DNA from: Paenirhizobium selenitireducens ATCC BAA-1503
Lineage (GTDB): Bacteria > Pseudomonadota > Alphaproteobacteria > Rhizobiales > Rhizobiaceae
DNA: 64,000 nt
Direction: 5' to 3'
Assembly: GCF_000518785.1 (NCBI RefSeq)
Contig: NZ_KI912495.1
Location: 150,257 to 214,256, forward strand
Part shown: one piece after another, positions 55,970 to 64,000 of the stretch
Layout: each line of letters begins with the position of its first letter
How positions within the stretch are numbered: position 1 is the stretch's first letter
The notes under the pieces: generated by a model
Databases searched by the model: none
What the model was told of the DNA's origin: nothing
The model's input: only the letters and a program-made list of their open reading frames with translations
Position numbers and translations under genes: made by a program

Positions 55970-57283
55970 GTGCATTCGAACTGCAACGATACCGCGTCCG
56001 CGCTTTCCCTGCCCCGCAAGGCGCCGCTGCGGGCGGCACTGCGCCGCGGCGCGCTGTTCGCCGGCTTGGTCCTGGTTCTGGCCGCCTGCGCCGGCCGGCC
56101 GATCGGCGTCATGGAGCCCACGAACCATACCGCCAACGGCACGACCAAGGTCGAGTTGATCGCGGCGACGACGCGGGCGCCGGCGGTCGACAAGGCGGTT
56201 CTTTTCACCGGCGAGCGCGGTTCCGGCCTGATGATCGACGCGGTGACCCTCTCCATCCCGCCCGATGCCAATCGCGAGATCGGCCAGGTCCAGTGGCCGA
56301 AACGCCTGCCGGCCGATCCGCAGAAGGAATTCACCACGGTCGCCGTCGATCCGATCACAAACGAAAAGGAAGGCGAGGCCTGGCTCAAGGGGCATGTTCC
56401 CAAGAGCCGCCGCGTCCTGGTCTTCGTCCACGGTTTCAATAATCTCTACGAGGAAGCCGTCTACCGCTTTGCCCAGATCGTCCACGATTCCAAGGCGGAC
56501 GTGGTGCCGGTGGTCTTCACCTGGCCGTCGCGGGGTTCAATCTTCGACTACAATTACGACAAGGAAAGCACGAACTACTCGCGCGATGCGCTGGAGGACC
56601 TGCTGACGCAGATCGCCCGCAATCCGGCCGTCGGCGAAGTGACGGTGATGGCCCATTCCATGGGGACCTGGCTTGCGGTCGAAGCGCTGCGGCAGATGGC
56701 CATCCGCCACGGCCGTGTCGATCCGAAGATCAGCAATGTCATCCTTGCGGCGCCCGATCTCGACGTCGACGTCTTCGGCCAACAATTCCAGAGCTTTGCC
56801 GGCAAGGCGCCGCACTTCACCCTGTTCGTCTCGCGCGACGACCGGGCTCTCACCATATCGAAGCATATTTCCGGCAATGTCGACCGCCTCGGCCATATCG
56901 ATCCGACGACCGAGCCCTACCGCTCGCAGCTGGAAATGGCCGGTATTTCCGTGCTCGACCTGACCAAGCTGAAATCCGGCGATGCGCTGAACCATGGAAA
57001 GTTCGCCGAGAGCCCCGAAGTGGTGCGCCTGATCGGCGAGCGGCTGATCGCCGGCCAGGCGGTGACCGATTCCTCCGTCGGGCTCGGCGAGAGCCTGGGC
57101 GCCGTCGCCATCGGCGCCGGCACCACGGTCGGTCAGGCGGCAAGCACAGTGATCAGCGCCCCGATCTCCATCTTCGACCCGCGCACCCGGCGAAATTACG
57201 GCCGCCAGTGGCTGCTGCTCGGCAACTCCGCCGGCAATACGATCGGCGCCGCCGGCACCGTGTTGACGCCGACCCGGCCTTGA
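55970..57283 (+). CDS. DUF900 alpha/beta-hydrolase lipoprotein
   Basis: 437 residues from a GTG with TTGGAGAGAG upstream. Signal region ends with a lipobox LAAC (cysteine C40), suggesting a lipoprotein anchored to a membrane. The hydrolase domain has the oxyanion region RVLVFVHGFNNLYEEAVYRF and the nucleophile elbow VMAHSMGTWLAVEAL with S230; the acid and histidine lie further on. DUF900 proteins resemble esterases or lipases; substrate unknown. The final segment (about residues 350-437) is rich in Gly, Ala and Thr. Confidence 0.83.
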   Translation: MHSNCNDTASALSLPRKAPLRAALRRGALFAGLVLVLAACAGRPIGVMEPTNHTANGTTKVELIAATTRAPAVDKAVLFTGERGSGLMIDAVTLSIPPDANREIGQVQWPKRLPADPQKEFTTVAVDPITNEKEGEAWLKGHVPKSRRVLVFVHGFNNLYEEAVYRFAQIVHDSKADVVPVVFTWPSRGSIFDYNYDKESTNYSRDALEDLLTQIARNPAVGEVTVMAHSMGTWLAVEALRQMAIRHGRVDPKISNVILAAPDLDVDVFGQQFQSFAGKAPHFTLFVSRDDRALTISKHISGNVDRLGHIDPTTEPYRSQLEMAGISVLDLTKLKSGDALNHGKFAESPEVVRLIGERLIAGQAVTDSSVGLGESLGAVAIGAGTTVGQAASTVISAPISIFDPRTRRNYGRQWLLLGNSAGNTIGAAGTVLTPTRP

Positions 57284-57326: not shown

Positions 57327-57731
57327 TTAGAGGTCCGCTGCGTGCAGCTCGAACAGCGGCGTGCCGTAGCCCGCAAGCGCGCCCTTGGGGGCCAGCTGGC
57401 GCGAAAGCACGCCGTCGGATGGTGCAACAACCGGGCGCAGCAGGGCGCCGGCCTTCAGGTAGCCGATGATCTCGCCGCGCCGCACGAGGCGGGGCAGGGC
57501 GGCGTCTTTTGTGCTGGATGGATGCTCGGGAAGGAAAAACCCGAGATGCGGTGCGGTGACCGTTTCCGCGCGGCGCGGAGCGGGAGCGGCAGGTTCTTCC
57601 GCCCTCTGTCCGACCTCGAATACCTCGCCGCCGCTCGCCACGATGTGCCGGGTGTCGTCCTGATACTCGAACTCCGCAATGCCGTAGCGCTGCATCAGCT
57701 CAAGGACGGATTGGATCCACGCGCTGCTCAT
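57327..57731 (-). CDS. Biotin-carrier-like protein lacking the biotin-accepting lysine
   Basis: 134 residues, clearly a paralogue of the AccB protein encoded at 59092-59553: same N-terminal segment ([21 protein letters not shown]) and same C-terminal biotinyl-like fold ([22 protein letters not shown]). Aligning the two, the EAMKM biotinylation motif is replaced by KAGAL (residues 93-97), so A96 takes the place of the acceptor lysine and the protein cannot be biotinylated. Its start overlaps the accC stop (ATGA), so it is translationally coupled and last in the minus-strand operon. It is not a pseudogene by frame; the role is unknown, perhaps structural or regulatory within the biotin carboxylase complex. 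Confidence 0.8.
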
Positions 57732-59092
57732 AGCGGCCTCCCGAATCCGTCGGCCATCAGCCGCTCCAGATGATGGATGTCGATGCCGCCGGCCGAAAAG
57801 CCGGGTTCATCGAGCAGAGCCAGGTGAAGGGCGCTTGACGTCTCCACGCCCTCGATGGTCAGTTCTTGAAGCGCCCGCCGCATGCGGGCGATCGCGCTCT
57901 CGCGCGTCGGTCCATGGGCGATCAGCTTGGCGATCAGCGAATCGTAGTTCGGCGGGATTTCATAGCCGGGATAAAGATGGGTATCGAGCCGTACGCCCGG
58001 TCCGCCGGGCGCGATGAAACGCGTCACCTTGCCGGGCGACGGCGTGAAGTTGAAGGCGTGCTCGGCATTGATCCGGCACTCGATGGCATGGCCACTGAGA
58101 AGCACTTCGTCCTGGGTCAGCCCGAGCCTCTCGCCCATGGCGATGCGTAGCTGTTCGCGGACGATGTCCACACCTGTGACTTCTTCGGTTACTGGATGCT
58201 CGACCTGCACCCGCGTGTTCATCTCGATGAAGTAGAACGCGCCGTCCTCGTAGAGGAATTCGAAGGTGCCGGCGCCGCGATAGCCGATGGCCAGGCACGC
58301 CGCCGCGCAGCGCCGACCGATCGCGTCGATGGCGGCCGGATCGATGCCGGGCGGGGGCGTCTCCTCGATCAGCTTCTGGTGCCGCCGCTGGGTGGAGCAG
58401 TCGCGCGCGCCGAGGTGGATCGCATTGCCGTGATTGTCGGCGAGAACCTGGATCTCGACATGGCGCGGGAATTCGAGGAAGCGCTCGACATAGACCTCGG
58501 GATTGCCGAACGCCCGCCCGGCCTCCTCGCGTGCCATCTGCACGGCGGCCGCAAGCGATCCGGGATCGCGGACGATGCGCATGCCGCGCCCGCCGCCGCC
58601 GCCCGATGCCTTGACGATCAGCGGATAGCCGGTCTCCTCACCGACGGCGGCGATACGCGCCGGGTCTTCCGGCAGGGCGCTGTCGGGGCCGGGAACGCAG
58701 GGTACGCCGGCCGCGATCATCGCCCGCTTGGCGGCCACCTTGTCGCCCATGATCCGGATCGCCGCCGATGGCGGGCCGACGAAGACCATGCCGGCCCGTT
58801 CGACCATTTCGGCGAAGTCGGCGTTTTCCGACAGGAAGCCGTAGCCCGGATGGATCGCGCCCGCGCCGGTCAATTGTGCCGCAAGCAGGATTTCATGGCT
58901 GTCGAGATAGCTGCGCGCCGCCGGCGCCGGGCCGATGCAGAGCGCCTGGTCGGCGAGCGCCACATGACGGAGATTGCGGTCGGCCTCCGAATGAATGGCG
59001 ATGGTCTTCAGGCCAAGGTCGCGGCAGGCCCTGAGTATCCTCAAGGCGATCTCCCCGCGATTGGCGATCAGCACGCTGTCGAACATGCGCAT
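57728..59092 (-). CDS. accC: Biotin carboxylase, second copy associated with the Pxp cluster
   Basis: 454 residues, ATP-grasp enzyme that carboxylates biotin on a carrier. It begins [20 protein letters not shown], with the glycine-rich loop [15 protein letters not shown] and the catalytic stretch [18 protein letters not shown]. All expected active-site residues appear present. The start overlaps the accB stop by one base. Housekeeping accBC of rhizobia normally lies elsewhere (with aroQ), so this is probably a dedicated second set. No accA, accD or PccB-type carboxyltransferase is encoded in the window. Confidence 0.93.
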
Positions 59093-59553
59093 CAGTCCGA
59101 GGCAAGCAGGATGAGCGGCGTGCCGGGCGTCACCGGTTCGCCATCCGCGACGAGGATGGAGACAATGCGGCCGCCGCGCGGCGCCTCCACCGGATTGAGC
59201 ATCTTCATCGCTTCGACGAGCGCCACCGTCTGGCCTTCCTCGATCAGGTCGCCTTCCTTCGCATAGGGTTCCGCACCAGGTGCGGGTGCGCGATAGAACG
59301 TGCCGGAAAGGCCGGCGACGATCACGGCCTCGTCGATCTCGGGGATATCGGGAAGCGCCATCAGCGCGGCGATCTCGGCCGCCGCCATGGCTTCGGGCGT
59401 ATCGCGACGCGTGGGCACGACTGCAGGGGCGCCGCCGTTGCGGCCCGCCGTCTTGGCGAGACGGATGCGCATGCCGTTCTCGCTGACCTCCAGCTCGTTG
59501 AGCGTGGAGTTCTCCAGCATCTGCATCAGTCTCTCGATCGTCGAAAGGTCCAT
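59092..59553 (-). CDS. accB: Biotin carboxyl carrier protein, second copy
   Basis: 153 residues. The biotinyl domain carries [13 protein letters not shown] with EAMKM at residues 114-118 (lysine K117), and the N-terminal segment [22 protein letters not shown] binds biotin carboxylase in AccB. The middle linker is Pro/Ala-rich. It shares a base with accC and lies 10 bases after pxpA, so pxpA-accB-accC-carrier paralogue forms one operon on the minus strand. Confidence 0.93.
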
Positions 59554-59563
59554 GGCGGTTCCC

Positions 59564-60328
59564 TCAACGCAGGAAGTTGGCGATGGCGATACCGTCGGCT
59601 TCCAGCGCCGCGCGGATCGTCCGGGCGATGTCGACGGCGGACGGCGTGTCGCTGTGCACGCAGATCGAATCGACCGGGGTGACGATGACGCGGCCGGTGA
59701 TCGTCTCGATCGCGCCGTTCTTCACCATGCGCACCACGCGCGCCGCCGCTGCGTCGGCATCGTGGATGACAGCACCGGGCTTGCTGCGATGGACGAGGAA
59801 GCCCTCGTCGGTATAGGCCCGGTCGGCGAAGATCTCGGAGCGGCATTCCAGCCCCATCTCGCGCGCCAGCCGTTCCTGGTGGCCAAGTGCGATGGTCAGG
59901 CAGACGAGCTTCGGGTCGACGGCCTTGATCGCGTTGTTGACGGCCTGCGCCACGCTCTCGTCCTGCTGGGTGAGGTTGCCAAGCGCGCCATGCGCCTTCA
60001 CATGGGTGATCGGGTGGCCTGCATAGGTCGAAAGTGCCTGCGCCGCGCCGATCTGATAGGCGACCAGCCGCTCGATCTCGCCGGCGGAAAAGGGAATGTT
60101 GCGCCGGCCGAAACCCCAGAGATCGGGGAAACCCGGATGCGCGCCGACGGCGACGCCCTTGGCCTTGGCGATGGCGAAGGTCGAGGCCATGATGTCCGGA
60201 TCGCCGGCATGCATGCCGCAGGCGATATTGGCCGAACTGACGATCGACAGCATCGCCTCGTCGTCGCCCATGCGATAGGCGCCGAAGCCTTCGCCCATAT
60301 CGGAATTGAGGTCGACGCTGAGTGACAT
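59564..60328 (-). CDS. pxpA: 5-oxoprolinase subunit PxpA (LamB/YcsF family)
   Basis: 254 residues from the ATG at 60328; the extra 20 upstream codons lack family sequence. The start SLSVDLNSDMGEGFGAYRMGDDEAML and SSANIACGMHAGDPDIM are the LamB/YcsF signature. PxpA is the hydrolase-like subunit of the ATP-dependent 5-oxoprolinase (L-5-oxoproline to glutamate) with PxpB and PxpC. First gene of the minus-strand operon; it diverges from pxpB with about 128 bases between. Confidence 0.93.
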   Translation of the reverse strand: MSLSVDLNSDMGEGFGAYRMGDDEAMLSIVSSANIACGMHAGDPDIMASTFAIAKAKGVAVGAHPGFPDLWGFGRRNIPFSAGEIERLVAYQIGAAQALSTYAGHPITHVKAHGALGNLTQQDESVAQAVNNAIKAVDPKLVCLTIALGHQERLAREMGLECRSEIFADRAYTDEGFLVHRSKPGAVIHDADAAAARVVRMVKNGAIETITGRVIVTPVDSICVHSDTPSAVDIARTIRAALEADGIAIANFLR

Positions 60329-60429
60329 GCCGCTTACGATCCCTGTTGATGTTTTCCCGAATAGTAGGTCGAGCCCAAGGGAATGCACAATGGCCGGACG
60401 AAGAAATGCTCTTGGTCTCCACCATATTC

Positions 60430-60439
60430 TGATATATCA
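60430..60439. promoter_or_regulatory. Palindrome in the pxpA-pxpB intergenic region
   Basis: TGATATATCA is a perfect 10-bp palindrome just before pxpB. It could be an operator of the divergent operons (GntR or similar), or simply an AT-rich promoter element. Confidence 0.35.
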
Positions 60440-60456
60440 CCATGAGAGAGACGACG

Positions 60457-61134
60457 ATGAAGGCAGGCATGCAGGAGCACGGCGATAATCCGCGGATCAG
60501 CCCGGAAGGGGCAGGGGCGCTTCTATTCGATGTCGCCGGCCCGGTTTTCGATGCGTCCTTGCAGGAACGCATCTGGGTTTTTGCCGATGGCCTCCGCCCC
60601 ATTCCTGGCGTCTCCGAGGTCGCACCCGGCATGAACAACCTGATGGTCCTCTTCGACCCGCTTCGCCTCGACCCGGACAGGCTCGAAGCCCACATGCTCG
60701 GCCAGTGGACGGCGACGGAGGCTGCTCCGGCCGCTGGACGTCTGGTGGAGATCCCCGTCGTCTACGGCAACGAAGGCAGCGATCTTGCCGAAGTCGCCGC
60801 GTCAAAGGGGCTGACGGTAGAGCGCCTGGTCGCGATGCACGCTGCACCCGTCTATTCCGTTGCAGCCGTCGGGGCGATGCCCGGCTTCGTCTATCTCTCT
60901 GGGCTCGATCCGGCCCTTGCGCTGCCCCGCCGCGCGGTTCCCCGCATGGGCGTGCCCGAGGGTTCCGTCATCATCGGCGGCGCGCAGGCCGGCATCATGC
61001 CGCTGACGGCACCTTCCGGCTGGCATATTCTCGGCCACACCGATTTTCATCTGTTCGATCCGATGCGCGAACCGCCGGCCGCCCTTCGCGCCGGTGACCG
61101 TATCCGTTTCGTCGTCAAGGAGATCCGGGCATGA
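60457..61134 (+). CDS. pxpB: 5-oxoprolinase subunit PxpB (KipI family)
   Basis: 225 residues from 60457, the second of three nearby in-frame ATGs; GAGAGA lies just before it. The KipI domain has RLVEIPVVYGNEGSDLAEVA and GAMPGFVYLSGLDPALALPRR, with GGAQAGIMPLTAPSGWHILG near the end (catalytic/cyclophilin-like fold). PxpB and PxpC together form the ATP-dependent part of 5-oxoprolinase; the same KipI/KipA fold is the carboxyltransferase half of urea carboxylase. The stop overlaps the pxpC start (ATGA). Confidence 0.92.
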   Translation: MKAGMQEHGDNPRISPEGAGALLFDVAGPVFDASLQERIWVFADGLRPIPGVSEVAPGMNNLMVLFDPLRLDPDRLEAHMLGQWTATEAAPAAGRLVEIPVVYGNEGSDLAEVAASKGLTVERLVAMHAAPVYSVAAVGAMPGFVYLSGLDPALALPRRAVPRMGVPEGSVIIGGAQAGIMPLTAPSGWHILGHTDFHLFDPMREPPAALRAGDRIRFVVKEIRA

Positions 61135-62150
61135 TCGAGATCCTGACGACAGGCGCGGCCAACTCCGTGCAGGACCTCGGCCGCTTCGGCTATCTCGACG
61201 CCGGCGTCTCCCGCTCCGGCGCCATGGATGCGCCGGCGCTGGAACTGGTCAACCGAATGATCGGCAACGACGCTAGTGCCGCGGCGATCGAAGTGGCGAT
61301 CTTTCCGTTTCGGTTGCGGTTCGGCCAGGCGACGCTGGTGGCCGTCACCGGCGCGGATTGCCCCGTGACCCTCAACGGAATTTCCTATCCCTCCTGGTGG
61401 ACGCTGCCCGTTCGCACCGGCGACATGCTCGAACTCGGCCTGCCGCGCAGTGGCGCGCGCGCCTATGTCGCCATCTCCGGAGGCCTTCGCGTTCCCGCCG
61501 TGCTGGGCTCGGCCTCGACCGACCTGAAAAGCGGCTGGGGCGGCCTGGAGGGCAGGGGCTTGCGTCGTGGCGACCGGCTCGACACCGGCTTTGCGCCGAT
61601 GACCGCGACCGGCTTGCCGGCGGGCTTCGGCCTGGAACCCGCGGAGATCGGCAGATCGACGCTCGACATTGGCGAGGACAGGCCGATCCGGGTTCTGCCG
61701 GGGGCGGAATACGGGTCCTTCGAGCCCGCGGCGGTCGAGGCCCTCGAAGCCGCCGCCTGGCAGGTCACGGACGATGCCAACCGCCAGGGCTATCGCCTGT
61801 CCGGCCCCGCACTCACCTTGACGCAAAAGCTCGAGCTGCATTCGCACGGCATCATGCCGGGCACCGTCCAGGTGCCGCCGTCAGGCCAGCCGATCATCCA
61901 GCTCGCCGAGGCCAATACCTGCGGCGGTTATCCGAAGATCGCCCATGTGATCGAGGCGGATCTCTGGCGGCTGGGCCAGTCCCCGGTCGGCAGTCGCCTG
62001 CGCTTCACTGTGGTAAGCCGCGCCGAGGCCGTCGCCGCGTTGCGCGCCGGGCGCGCCGCGATTGATCGTGCTGCCGCCTTTTCAGCCCTTGCCCGCAAGG
62101 ACAAGTCGCATCCCGAACACCTGGCCGCGCTGTCTCGCGCGAAAGCCTGA
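61131..62150 (+). CDS. pxpC: 5-oxoprolinase subunit PxpC (KipA family)
   Basis: 339 residues. The KipA start IEILTTGAANSVQDLGRFGYLDAGVSRSGAMD is diagnostic, and PPSGQPIIQLAEANTCGGYPKIAHVIEADLWRLGQ closes the domain. It pairs with PxpB. ATG overlaps the pxpB stop by four bases. Usual length about 310-340. The protein was formerly annotated as allophanate hydrolase subunit 2; PxpC is the more specific name because the pxpABC triad is complete here. Confidence 0.93.
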   Translation: MIEILTTGAANSVQDLGRFGYLDAGVSRSGAMDAPALELVNRMIGNDASAAAIEVAIFPFRLRFGQATLVAVTGADCPVTLNGISYPSWWTLPVRTGDMLELGLPRSGARAYVAISGGLRVPAVLGSASTDLKSGWGGLEGRGLRRGDRLDTGFAPMTATGLPAGFGLEPAEIGRSTLDIGEDRPIRVLPGAEYGSFEPAAVEALEAAAWQVTDDANRQGYRLSGPALTLTQKLELHSHGIMPGTVQVPPSGQPIIQLAEANTCGGYPKIAHVIEADLWRLGQSPVGSRLRFTVVSRAEAVAALRAGRAAIDRAAAFSALARKDKSHPEHLAALSRAKA

Positions 62151-62174
62151 AATCCTGACTGACGGAGCAAGACC

Positions 62175-63215
62175 ATGAGATGGAAACGTACTCTTCAGCT
62201 GATCGACGTCCATTGCGAGGGCGAGATCGGCAAGGTGGCGGTCGGCGGCGTGCCGAAGATTCCGGGCGATACGATTGCCGAACAGCTGCACTGGCTGAAC
62301 AACGACCCCAAGGGGCAGGAACTCCGCCGCTTCCTCGTGCTCGAGCCGCGCGGCGCGCCGATCGGCTCGGTCAATCTCCTGCTGCCGGCCAAGAACCCCA
62401 AGGCCGATGCGGGCTTCGTCATCCTGCAGCCGGACCAGGCCCATGCGAGCTCCGGATCGAACTCGATCTGCATCACCACGGCGCTGCTCGAAAGCGGCAT
62501 CGTCGAGATGACCGAGCCGGAGACGACGGTGGTGCTCGACACCGCCGCCGGCCTGGTGACCGCCACCGCCACCTGCCGCGACGGCCGCTGCGAGCGGGTC
62601 AAGCTCACCATGGTCCCGTCCTTCGTGCATGAGCTGGACGTCAGCCTCGAGACCGAGCAATGGGGCCGCATCACCTTCGACCTCAGCTATGGCGGCATCT
62701 TCTATGCGCTGGTCGATGTCGGCCAGGTCGGGCTCACCATCGACAAGGCCAATGCCCGCGGCCTGGTCGAAGCCGGGATGATCCTCAAGGAAGAGATCAA
62801 TCGCCGCATTCCGGTCGTCCACCCGGAAATCCCGGCAATCTCCGGCGTGGCCTACGTGATGTTCCGCGACGTCGATCCCGACGGCGCGATCCGCACTTGC
62901 ACCACCATGTGGCCCGGCCGCGTCGATCGCTCGCCCTGCGGCACCGGCAATTCCGCCAACCTCGCAACGCTTTACGCGCGCGGCAAGGTCAAGGTCGGCG
63001 ACGTGCTGAAATCCCGCTCGATCATCGGCTCGGAATTCGAGGTGGGCCTGAAGGAAGTCACCGAGGTCGCCGGACGCCCCGCCGTCATCCCGACGATCAG
63101 CGGCCGCGGCTTCACCTTCGGCCTGCACCAGGTGGCGCTCGATCCGTTCGACCCGCTGGCCGATGGCTTCGCCCTCACCGATGTCTGGGGACCCTCGGCG
63201 GGTTCGATTGGTTAA
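62175..63215 (+). CDS. Proline-racemase superfamily enzyme (Ser/Cys active-site pair)
   Basis: 346 residues of the proline racemase / hydroxyproline epimerase superfamily. The second catalytic position is intact: C255 in RSPCGTGNSAN. The first position, normally cysteine (CGHN), is serine S93 in the SSGSN motif. Family members with Ser/Cys pairs are reported among 4-hydroxyproline and 3-hydroxyproline epimerases, while Thr/Cys forms are dehydratases, so function is not proline racemization by default. It starts 24 bases after pxpC in the same operon. Its position suggests it acts on a proline-like or oxoproline substrate, which is inference. Confidence 0.85.
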   Translation: MRWKRTLQLIDVHCEGEIGKVAVGGVPKIPGDTIAEQLHWLNNDPKGQELRRFLVLEPRGAPIGSVNLLLPAKNPKADAGFVILQPDQAHASSGSNSICITTALLESGIVEMTEPETTVVLDTAAGLVTATATCRDGRCERVKLTMVPSFVHELDVSLETEQWGRITFDLSYGGIFYALVDVGQVGLTIDKANARGLVEAGMILKEEINRRIPVVHPEIPAISGVAYVMFRDVDPDGAIRTCTTMWPGRVDRSPCGTGNSANLATLYARGKVKVGDVLKSRSIIGSEFEVGLKEVTEVAGRPAVIPTISGRGFTFGLHQVALDPFDPLADGFALTDVWGPSAGSIG

Positions 63216-63312: not shown

Positions 63313-63369
63313 AGCGATCGTATTCGCGTCGCCCTGATTGGTGCATGAGCAAGAAAAGTGGAAGATCAT

Positions 63370-64000
63370 TTGTCCGTGGGAGCCCCTTCGCAAAACAACG
63401 CGCACAGTCTTTCCACGCTGCGCGGCACGTCGATATTTGCCAGCCTGAGCGCCGGCGAAGACAATGATTGGCTGGCGCGCTGTCACACGCGCAATCTTTG
63501 CGCCGGCGAAAGTCTCGTGGACTATGAGGACGCATCGAAAGATGTCTTCGTCGTGCAGAGCGGCGAGATTCGCGCCGTGCTGCGCTTCACCGTCGGCAAG
63601 GAGGCCATTCTCGGCACATTCCGGCGCGGCGACCTTTTGGGCGAACTGTCGGCGATCGACGAAATGGCCCGCTCGGCCAGCCTGATGGCGGTCAGCGATG
63701 CGGTCGTGACCGTCATTCCCTATGCCGTCTTCCACGACATCCTGCAGACCCGTCGGGAAGTCTGTCTGTCCCTGATGCGACTGCTGTCGGGCCGCATCCG
63801 CTCGATGAACGAGCGCGTGTCCGAGCTGTCCTTTCTCGACACCAAGCATCGTCTCTACAATGCGCTGCTGCGGCTCTCGCGCCTGCGCGGCGACGGCGGA
63901 CGCGAGCGGATCATCTCACCGCCGCTCGTCCATGCCGAGCTTGCCGAGCATATCGGCTCCAGCCGCGAGACCGTGTCGCGGGAAATGTCGCGGCTGATCC
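63370..64000 (+). CDS. Crp/Fnr-family transcriptional regulator, 5' part
   Basis: The gene runs off the window end; 210 codons are visible. A cyclic-nucleotide-binding-like domain (VFVVQSGEIRAVLRFTVGKEAILGTFRRGDLLGELSAID) is followed by the dimerisation helix and a Crp-type helix-turn-helix (HAELAEHIGSSRETVSREMSRLI). No Fnr cysteines are seen at the N-terminus. The start is either the TTG at 63370, five bases after GGAAG, or the GTG two codons later; no ATG fits. Its link to the Pxp operons is only positional. Confidence 0.85.
   Translation, partial: MSVGAPSQNNAHSLSTLRGTSIFASLSAGEDNDWLARCHTRNLCAGESLVDYEDASKDVFVVQSGEIRAVLRFTVGKEAILGTFRRGDLLGELSAIDEMARSASLMAVSDAVVTVIPYAVFHDILQTRREVCLSLMRLLSGRIRSMNERVSELSFLDTKHRLYNALLRLSRLRGDGGRERIISPPLVHAELAEHIGSSRETVSREMSRLI

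Follow-up and report, generated by a model that had tools for sequence, protein, structure and literature searches.

The pxp-acc cluster in the window

The window analysed here is a stretch of 64,000 nucleotides from Paenirhizobium selenitireducens ATCC BAA-1503 (C3:150257-214256, on contig C3 of a 4.98 Mb genome that is 99.8% complete), and its positions 57327-63215 hold a cluster in which the genes for PxpA, PxpB and PxpC, the three families of bacterial 5-oxoprolinase, stand with genes for a biotin carboxylase (BC) and for biotin carrier proteins. As claimed in a preliminary description of this DNA and as borne out by family scores, the cluster consists of seven intact open reading frames in two divergent sets, pxpA, accB, accC and a carrier paralogue of 134 amino acids (aa) running leftward, and pxpB, pxpC and a proline-racemase-family gene running rightward. 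The overlaps of one to four bases between accB and accC, between accC and the paralogue (the end of accC and the start of the paralogue share 4 bases) and between pxpB and pxpC are as in tight operons. Among named relatives, Rhizobium sp. and Ciceribacter come closest in their PxpB/PxpC and AccC sequences. The proteins were assigned to families by NCBIfam and Pfam profile scores, compared with curated cut-offs, and the features are as follows.

57327-57731, minus strand: AccB paralogue without the biotin-accepting lysine (Lys-less pseudo-carrier), 134 aa; N-terminal AccB-like domain and biotinyl-type domain, with KAGAL instead of EAMKM
57728-59092, minus strand: AccC-type BC, 454 aa; TIGR00514, 675.8 bits against a cut-off of 626.5; a member of the type I BC clade described below
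59092-59553, minus strand: AccB biotin carboxyl carrier, 153 aa, EAMKM with K117; TIGR00531, 115.9 bits against 115.2, barely over
59564-60328, minus strand: PxpA (LamB/YcsF family); NF003814, 364.6 bits against a subfamily cut-off of 226; PF03746, 320 bits
60430-60439, no strand: perfect palindrome TGATATATCA in the divergent intergenic region
60442-61134, plus strand: PxpB (KipI family; carboxyltransferase subdomains C and D); TIGR00370, 177.9 bits against 145.55; PF02682 over cut-off
61131-62150, plus strand: PxpC (KipA family; carboxyltransferase subdomains A and B); TIGR00724 'urea_amlyse_rel', 296.2 bits against 230.2; PF02626 over cut-off
62175-63215, plus strand: proline-racemase family protein, motifs SSGSN and SPCGTG; PF05544, 412 bits

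The window thus encodes PxpA, PxpB and PxpC together, and the curated 5-oxoprolinase cut-offs are reached by some subunits only: PxpB is over its cut-off and PxpA over that of its subfamily, while PxpC falls far below the PxpC equivalog NF045499 (290.3 against 500 bits). A longer GTG frame for PxpA extends to 60388; judged from the translation, the start is most likely the ATG near 60328. The biotin lysine K117 claimed earlier for the EAMKM motif of AccB was confirmed in the alignment, where it is invariant across the 8 AccB aligned and stands in the AMKM context. AccC keeps 13 of 13 residues checked against E. coli AccC, which we take to be the catalytic ones, as an intact BC does. The profile of single-chain urea carboxylase (UC), TIGR02712, is not reached by any of the split genes (AccC 455.9, PxpC 171.3 and AccB 31.2 of 1303.85 bits).

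The carrier paralogue had no family match in NCBIfam or Pfam at E 0.001, and its PDB matches were found only at E 0.09-0.25. Family searches having given nothing, it was placed by profile comparison and fold. Its profile aligns with that of AccB over nearly the whole length (hhalign probability 99.6%, E 1.4e-24), and its AlphaFold2 (AF2) model, with a mean pLDDT of 87.3, has as its top Foldseek match the biotinyl domain 1bdo (TM 0.85 by target). By these comparisons the 134-aa protein has both an AccB-type N-terminal domain and a biotinyl fold; the biotin-accepting lysine is missing. An alanine occupies the column of the AccB biotin lysine; no lysine is found at or beside this column in 23 of 23 paralogues aligned, and H70, P71 and G107 are invariant among 28 paralogue sequences aligned.

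Biotin-dependent enzymes elsewhere in the genome

The genome contains five BC C-terminal domains and three matches to Carboxyl_trans (PF01039). The latter are confined to contigs C12, C9 and C6, with no match in the window or on its contig; the earlier statement that the window lacks a carboxyltransferase (CT) of the AccA, AccD or PccB kind therefore holds, and no AccA/AccD partner for the window AccB and AccC was found on the contig. By match position and frame length, the BC on C12 pairs with the CT on C12, the AccC on C2 pairs with AccD and AccA on C9 and C6 as likely partners, and the BC on C6 sits in a frame of 1177 aa, the length of pyruvate carboxylase. The remaining two BC genes, one in the window and the other on C7, each adjoin one of the only two PxpB matches in the genome, and the only two PxpA matches are found in the same two places. 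On this inventory, neither a biotin-free PxpABC nor an unpaired CT was found in the genome. A CT partner for this AccB and AccC elsewhere in the genome, which the preliminary description had named as evidence that would count against it, was thus looked for and did not appear.

The window set is not unique in its own genome. The second PxpABC-BC operon, on C7 (locus L011, 5457-9730; type II in the classification below), encodes PxpA, a biotin carboxyl carrier protein (BCCP) of 79 aa with EVMKTF, a BC of 460 aa, PxpB of 291 aa and PxpC, and is followed downstream of pxpC by genes that, judged by eye, encode an ABC transporter.

Breadth of the BC-PxpABC pairing

Among the matches listed for 60 Pseudomonadota genomes, including this one, PF02682 was found in 16 genomes with 24 matches, of which 8 are in frames of UC length (1180-1416 aa) and 16 are free-standing PxpB; a BC lies within about 5 kb of 8 of these 16. 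In a survey of 299 genomes, PF02626 was found in 142, again among the matches listed. With home-made profiles we annotated 182 loci: 2 of this genome, 6 from plasmids, 14 from the first survey, 80 named loci, which are the best 80 of 575 PxpC relatives, and 80 free-standing ones from the 299-genome survey. As these last 80 places were taken from among the matches listed, the survey proportions are not unbiased.

Within 8 kb of the best 80 of 575 named loci, 56 have a BC and a biotinylatable carrier, 14 a biotinylatable carrier without BC, 6 a Lys-less carrier only and 4 none of these, with at least 2 of the last 4 near contig ends. One of the 14 loci with a carrier and no BC (L087) is on a contig of 5.6 kb. 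In 4 of 4 genomes of this kind examined, only one BC has an AccC-like frame length to charge the dedicated carrier, a finding that speaks for a CT role of PxpB-PxpC.

Phylogeny of PxpB-PxpC and of biotin carboxylase

A tree of the joined PxpB and PxpC domains was built from 187 rows (180 loci, E. coli and 6 UCs), 2 of the 182 loci having too little PxpB or PxpC to be included; it and the BC protein tree were both computed with FastTree and carry long-branch warnings. The rows fall into a UC clade, type II (14 rows), type III (14 rows, support 100), several lone clades, an E. coli-type clade and the 90-row type I clade that contains the window. The type labels are crude, in that L057, L121 and L232 are labelled II but lie outside the type II clade; in the counts, L223 is placed with the E. 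coli-type clade and L181 and L187 with the type II clade, following the tree. The share of loci with a BC no more than 8 kb away is 64 of 90 in type I, 12 of 14 in the type II clade and 14 of 14 in type III, against 1 of 18 in the E. coli-type clade (L223) and 0 of 40 among the remaining lone loci; the last count tests nothing by itself, because the lone class is defined by absence of the biotin module. The label 'lone' needs 8 changes on the tree compared with 54 in shuffles.

The three biotin-linked types differ in make-up. Of the 90 type I loci, 88 have PxpA and 80 a biotinylatable carrier, the latter a count too high by one; at least 84 (86 with L021 and L079, which were misread in the count) have a further AccB-like protein that lacks the biotin lysine. 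The type II clade consists of 12 loci with a module of the C7 type, in which the carrier motif has the form EVMK, and 2 lone loci. In type III (L034, L035, L037, L038 and ten more), BC and BCCP are fused in a protein of about 570-610 aa in most, PxpA stands alongside, and in 13 of 14 PxpB and PxpC are joined in one protein; L038 was scored as Lys-less in the carrier count. Outside these clades, L232 stands alone on the tree with a BC and the carrier motif ELMK, and L192, L193 and L198 form a small group in which 0 of 3 have a BC and L192 has a biotinylatable carrier.

On the BC protein tree, types I, II and III are three separate lineages: the type I BCs form one clade (support 99) that groups with housekeeping AccC, and those of types II and III stand apart. 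The simplest reading is that PxpABC acquired a biotin module on at least three separate occasions in addition to UC; losses from a biotin-linked ancestor may also have occurred, because change counts cannot tell gain from loss. As a separate observation, L223, inside the E. coli-type clade, has BC and carrier genes near PxpABC, its BC lying outside the type I BC clade, and by its sequence may possibly represent a further separate recruitment.

These trees bear on the idea that AccB and the second AccC (AccC2) are spare acetyl-CoA carboxylase subunits that stand beside pxpABC by chance. The grouping of type I AccC with housekeeping AccC, to which the 61% identity between the window AccC and E. 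coli AccC may be added, speaks for this idea. The linkage is nevertheless kept in alpha-, beta- and gammaproteobacteria and marks three clades, the window is without a CT gene, and a BC is expected by chance within 8 kb of only 1-2% of loci, a rough figure from five BC in 5 Mb. We regard chance as a most improbable explanation. As a functional association, a split carboxylase built around PxpABC is well supported.

Proposed mechanism and the carboxyltransferase question

We propose that AccC, AccB, PxpB and PxpC form a split biotin-dependent carboxylase that activates a lactam for PxpA, a reading towards which we lean, and which as a mechanism is moderately supported. AccC would use ATP and bicarbonate to carboxylate the biotin on K117 of AccB, and PxpB-PxpC, acting as the CT, would transfer the carboxyl group to the amide of the lactam, for which a cyclic amino acid related to 5-oxoproline is more likely than 5-oxoproline itself; PxpA would then hydrolyse the activated lactam, and CO2 would be lost afterwards. 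We infer the assembly into one complex, the carboxyl transfer, the order of the steps, the substrate and the role of the paralogue. The recurring pairing of BC with PxpABC points to a CO2-using route of lactam opening. The fuller proposal, in which a biotin-dependent lactam carboxylase-hydrolase also has a Lys-less twin as structural or regulatory pseudo-carrier and arose by at least three gains of the biotin module besides UC, seems to us about evenly balanced between right and wrong.

PxpB-PxpC is, by fold and ancestry, kin of the CT of UC. The AF2 model of the window PxpC superposes on E. coli YbgK (5dud) with Z 39.4 and a root-mean-square deviation (rmsd) of 1.6 over 300 aligned residues, and on the urea amidolyase of K. 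lactis (KlUA; 5i8i) with Z 35.8 and an rmsd of 2.4 over 308. In the excerpts that represent here each paper cited by PMC number, Lys1605 of KlUA is called the likely general base (PMC5770610). With the numbering of K1605 checked, and with seven rows (L181, L187, L192, L193, L198, L223 and L232) excluded from the residue counts, this column is lysine in 6 of 6 UCs and 12 of 12 type II rows, and arginine in 90 of 90 type I rows, the window PxpB included, as well as in 14 of 14 type III, 18 of 18 E. coli-type and 40 of 40 lone rows. The test is therefore in favour of a UC-like general base in type II and against one in types I and III. As the arginine is common to enzymes without biotin genes, either it is used in both chemistries or carboxyl transfer in the manner of UC does not take place in type I.

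Two other candidate marks were rejected. The [DE]RQT Arg-Gln motif of PxpC does not mark lone enzymes, as E. coli YbgK has DAQT, and Gln250 was dropped as a PxpC discriminator when glutamine was found in 18 of 56 rows labelled type I. At the column of window PxpC 257, glutamine is present in all type I rows and leucine in all E. coli-type and 88% of lone rows, which shows only that the type I clade has residues of its own there.

The module might also be a urea-type carboxylase of a non-lactam amide or ureide, with PxpA hydrolysing the N-carboxylated product. In UC, N-carboxylation precedes hydrolysis (PMC5770610), type II keeps the UC lysine, and the modelled PxpC and the UC CT appear to have their fold in common. 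The absence of this lysine from type I, the membership of PxpA in the 5-oxoprolinase family and the conserved proline-racemase-family gene nearby, which suggests a cyclic amino acid, make such a substrate highly unlikely, and we retain a lactam as the proposed one.

KipA is an antagonist of KipI, and it is conceivable that PxpB-PxpC is a regulator or inhibitor that binds BC or carrier, with the dedicated carriers, with and without the lysine, mediating the control. A pair of these families is found bound to long chain acyl-CoA carboxylase, an enzyme that presumably has a CT of its own. The structure, PDB entry 9yx5, is by its title and chain names the M. smegmatis long chain acyl-CoA carboxylase complex, AccA3 included, with MSMEG_0435-MSMEG_0436 bound, and these two proteins are a KipA/KipI (PxpC/PxpB) family pair; no paper was found in a literature search on this entry. 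As far as title and chain names tell, it resembles the proposed assembly in holding a PxpC/PxpB-family pair and a biotin-dependent carboxylase in one complex, and differs in that its PxpC-family chain carries the motif DHPxTGGYP, which is found in type III rows. KipI is named a kinase inhibitor in the title of 2zp2, and Lys-less carriers persist without BC, as a regulatory role would allow. PxpA is nonetheless retained in nearly all type I loci, genes of kinds usual in catabolism (transporter, aminotransferase, RraA family) are found again and again, and all AccC catalytic residues checked are kept, so that we regard a purely regulatory PxpB-PxpC as improbable in comparison with a carboxylase that prepares the lactam for PxpA.

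Several findings weigh against this carboxylase and are best read together with a further alternative, namely that PxpABC is an ordinary ATP-dependent lactamase or 5-oxoprolinase beside which AccB and AccC2 work in the same pathway, for instance in the carboxylation of a later product or in the supply of bicarbonate or carboxyphosphate. PxpABC activity has reportedly been reconstituted from purified B. subtilis proteins. The available text on C. glutamicum treats PxpABC as a 5-oxoprolinase that depends on ATP, and assumes that PxpBC carries out the phosphorylation (PMC13274462). On the tree, the E. coli-type clade is sister to type I (98), and E. coli pxpABC, to which type I is thus akin, stands without biotin genes. 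Type I has the arginine of the lone rows at the K1605 column, and no residue tested cleanly separates biotin-linked from lone PxpC. No BC lies within 8 kb of 26 of 90 type I loci; 3 of the 90, two of which lie close to contig ends, lack BC and carriers alike in their surroundings, and 7 loci, of which five are named Enterobacterales, have PxpABC and a Lys-less carrier with no BC and no biotinylatable carrier nearby, plasmid locus L021 being a possible eighth with the Lys-less carrier alone. Opposed to this alternative are the lack of any other unpaired CT in the genome that could serve the biotin module, the joining of three BC lineages to PxpABC, the UC lysine in every type II row counted and the KipI/KipA-family pair bound to a BC complex in 9yx5, as its title describes it. 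We consider the ordinary enzyme unlikely, while the split carboxylase remains the reading that we prefer.

The urea-carboxylase type of split carboxylase claimed in the preliminary description stands in part. That the biotin module belongs with PxpB/PxpC is favoured by the three clades, the three BC lineages and what the title of 9yx5 reports; the likeness to UC itself is weakened for type I by the arginine at K1605 and by PxpBC being nearest the E. coli enzyme. The second operon, the missing biotin lysine in the paralogues of nearly all relatives and the loci with a carrier but no BC go beyond that description.

The Lys-less carrier

The AccB paralogue without the biotin lysine probably takes no part in catalysis and, as a partner of AccC and AccB, would shape or regulate their assembly. 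Because the paralogue persists beside PxpABC without BC or biotinylatable carrier, its role may be separable from carboxylation. Clusters of this make-up are found in Enterobacterales (L104, L107, L108, L109 and L115) and on the plasmid of L021, where PxpABC has the Lys-less carrier only; in 4 of the 5 Enterobacterales genomes, one or more BCs are also found in frames of UC length.

Plant BADC proteins are reported to regulate acetyl-CoA carboxylase. They are similar in being BCCP-like proteins without the biotin lysine, and different in their source, as the Lys-less carriers come from bacteria and from Pxp clusters of type I; the likeness is an analogy. If the role proposed here is correct, the Lys-less carrier would be the bacterial counterpart of BADC.

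Comparison with known systems

The cluster shares the PxpA, PxpB and PxpC families with the PxpABC 5-oxoprolinase of B. subtilis, C. glutamicum and E. coli, from which it differs by the addition of AccB, AccC and the Lys-less carrier. With urea carboxylase/urea amidolyase it has the same three modules in common (BC, CT and BCCP), the CT having the PxpC fold. UC is a single chain, whereas the window has four genes; moreover, the window pairs its modules with PxpA rather than allophanate hydrolase, its type I sequence has arginine in place of K1605, and its BC belongs to a separate lineage. The P. aeruginosa genes PA0492-PA0496, of which we take PA0492 to be PxpA and PA0495 and PA0496 to be PxpB and PxpC, presumably resemble type II, as on C7, and not type I of the window. 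For the PA0493-PA0496 operon, the excerpt describes PA0494 as AccC-like and PA0493 as AccB-like and reports the precise function as unknown (PMC6249292). Paired two-gene homologues of the UC CT appear, without functional data in the part available, in a 2011 study (PMC3199775), and annotated plasmid records call PxpC relatives 'biotin-dependent carboxyltransferase family protein'.

Lactam hydrolysis by the caprolactamase CapAB needs ATP and bicarbonate, and CapAB is stated in the same excerpt not to be similar to PxpABC (PMC8453981). That this unrelated lactam hydrolase requires bicarbonate counts in favour of the proposed mechanism. CapAB and its hydantoinase and eukaryotic-type 5-oxoprolinase relatives are alike in ATP-requiring lactam hydrolysis and differ in having no biotin carrier.

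In the open-licence literature we found no description of pxp and BC genes together or of a biotin-dependent PxpABC; nor was a description of the Lys-less carrier met in that literature, in which no search was made by its name. What is new here is the breadth of the pairing, its repeated recruitment and the conserved AccB-like protein without biotin lysine.

As a 5-oxoprolinase, PxpABC is common among bacteria, and the chemistry ascribed to its PxpB/PxpC part is no more than an assumption. If PxpBC relatives act as CTs, the family would have two ways of activating an amide, phosphorylation and biotin carboxylation, and how the enzyme switches between them becomes a question that can be asked. 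Many genes annotated as acetyl-CoA carboxylase subunits, some of them on rhizobial plasmids, would also be re-assigned to lactam catabolism if the proposal is true.

Gene neighbourhood, substrate and regulation

Neighbouring genes were clustered for 91 loci of the named, plasmid and near sets, with the names of clusters taken from one representative each and non-genes excluded by judgement. The recurrent non-core genes encode an SDR oxidoreductase (54), an aminotransferase (51), a LysR regulator (43), whose representative is over the NAC cut-off, an RraA-like protein (41; here the protein scanned was one from L020, not the representative of that cluster), a 2-hydroxyacid dehydrogenase (23) and a proline-racemase-family protein (16), together with the ATPase (53), permease (41) and binding protein (39) of an amino-acid ABC transporter. 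On this gene content, the neighbourhood looks like a nitrogen-controlled pathway that breaks down a cyclic or hydroxylated amino acid, for which 5-oxoproline would be only one candidate substrate and a related cyclic amino acid the more likely one.

The racemase-family gene is a conserved companion in near relatives, which have close copies of it beside the cluster. Its product in the window is nearest trans-3-hydroxy-L-proline dehydratase (NF047722, 344.5 of 550 bits) and is below the cut-off of all 6 NCBIfam models listed for it. The motifs of this family vary, with SSGSN and SPCGTG in the window and MSGSN and SPTGTG in Mesorhizobium (L017, 10247-11272), a difference that may reflect different reactions.

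The palindrome TGATATATCA between the divergent sets has a single match in the window and 0 in 100 shuffles, its longer form is found once in the genome, and all 5 near relatives examined have it; it is a possible candidate for a regulator site. A gene for a CRP/FNR-type regulator at 63358-64000 directly follows the racemase-family gene and runs off the end of the window, and its product possibly controls the cluster. On the other side, a DUF900 alpha/beta hydrolase gene at 55970-57283, on the opposite strand, adjoins the cluster and is probably unrelated to it.

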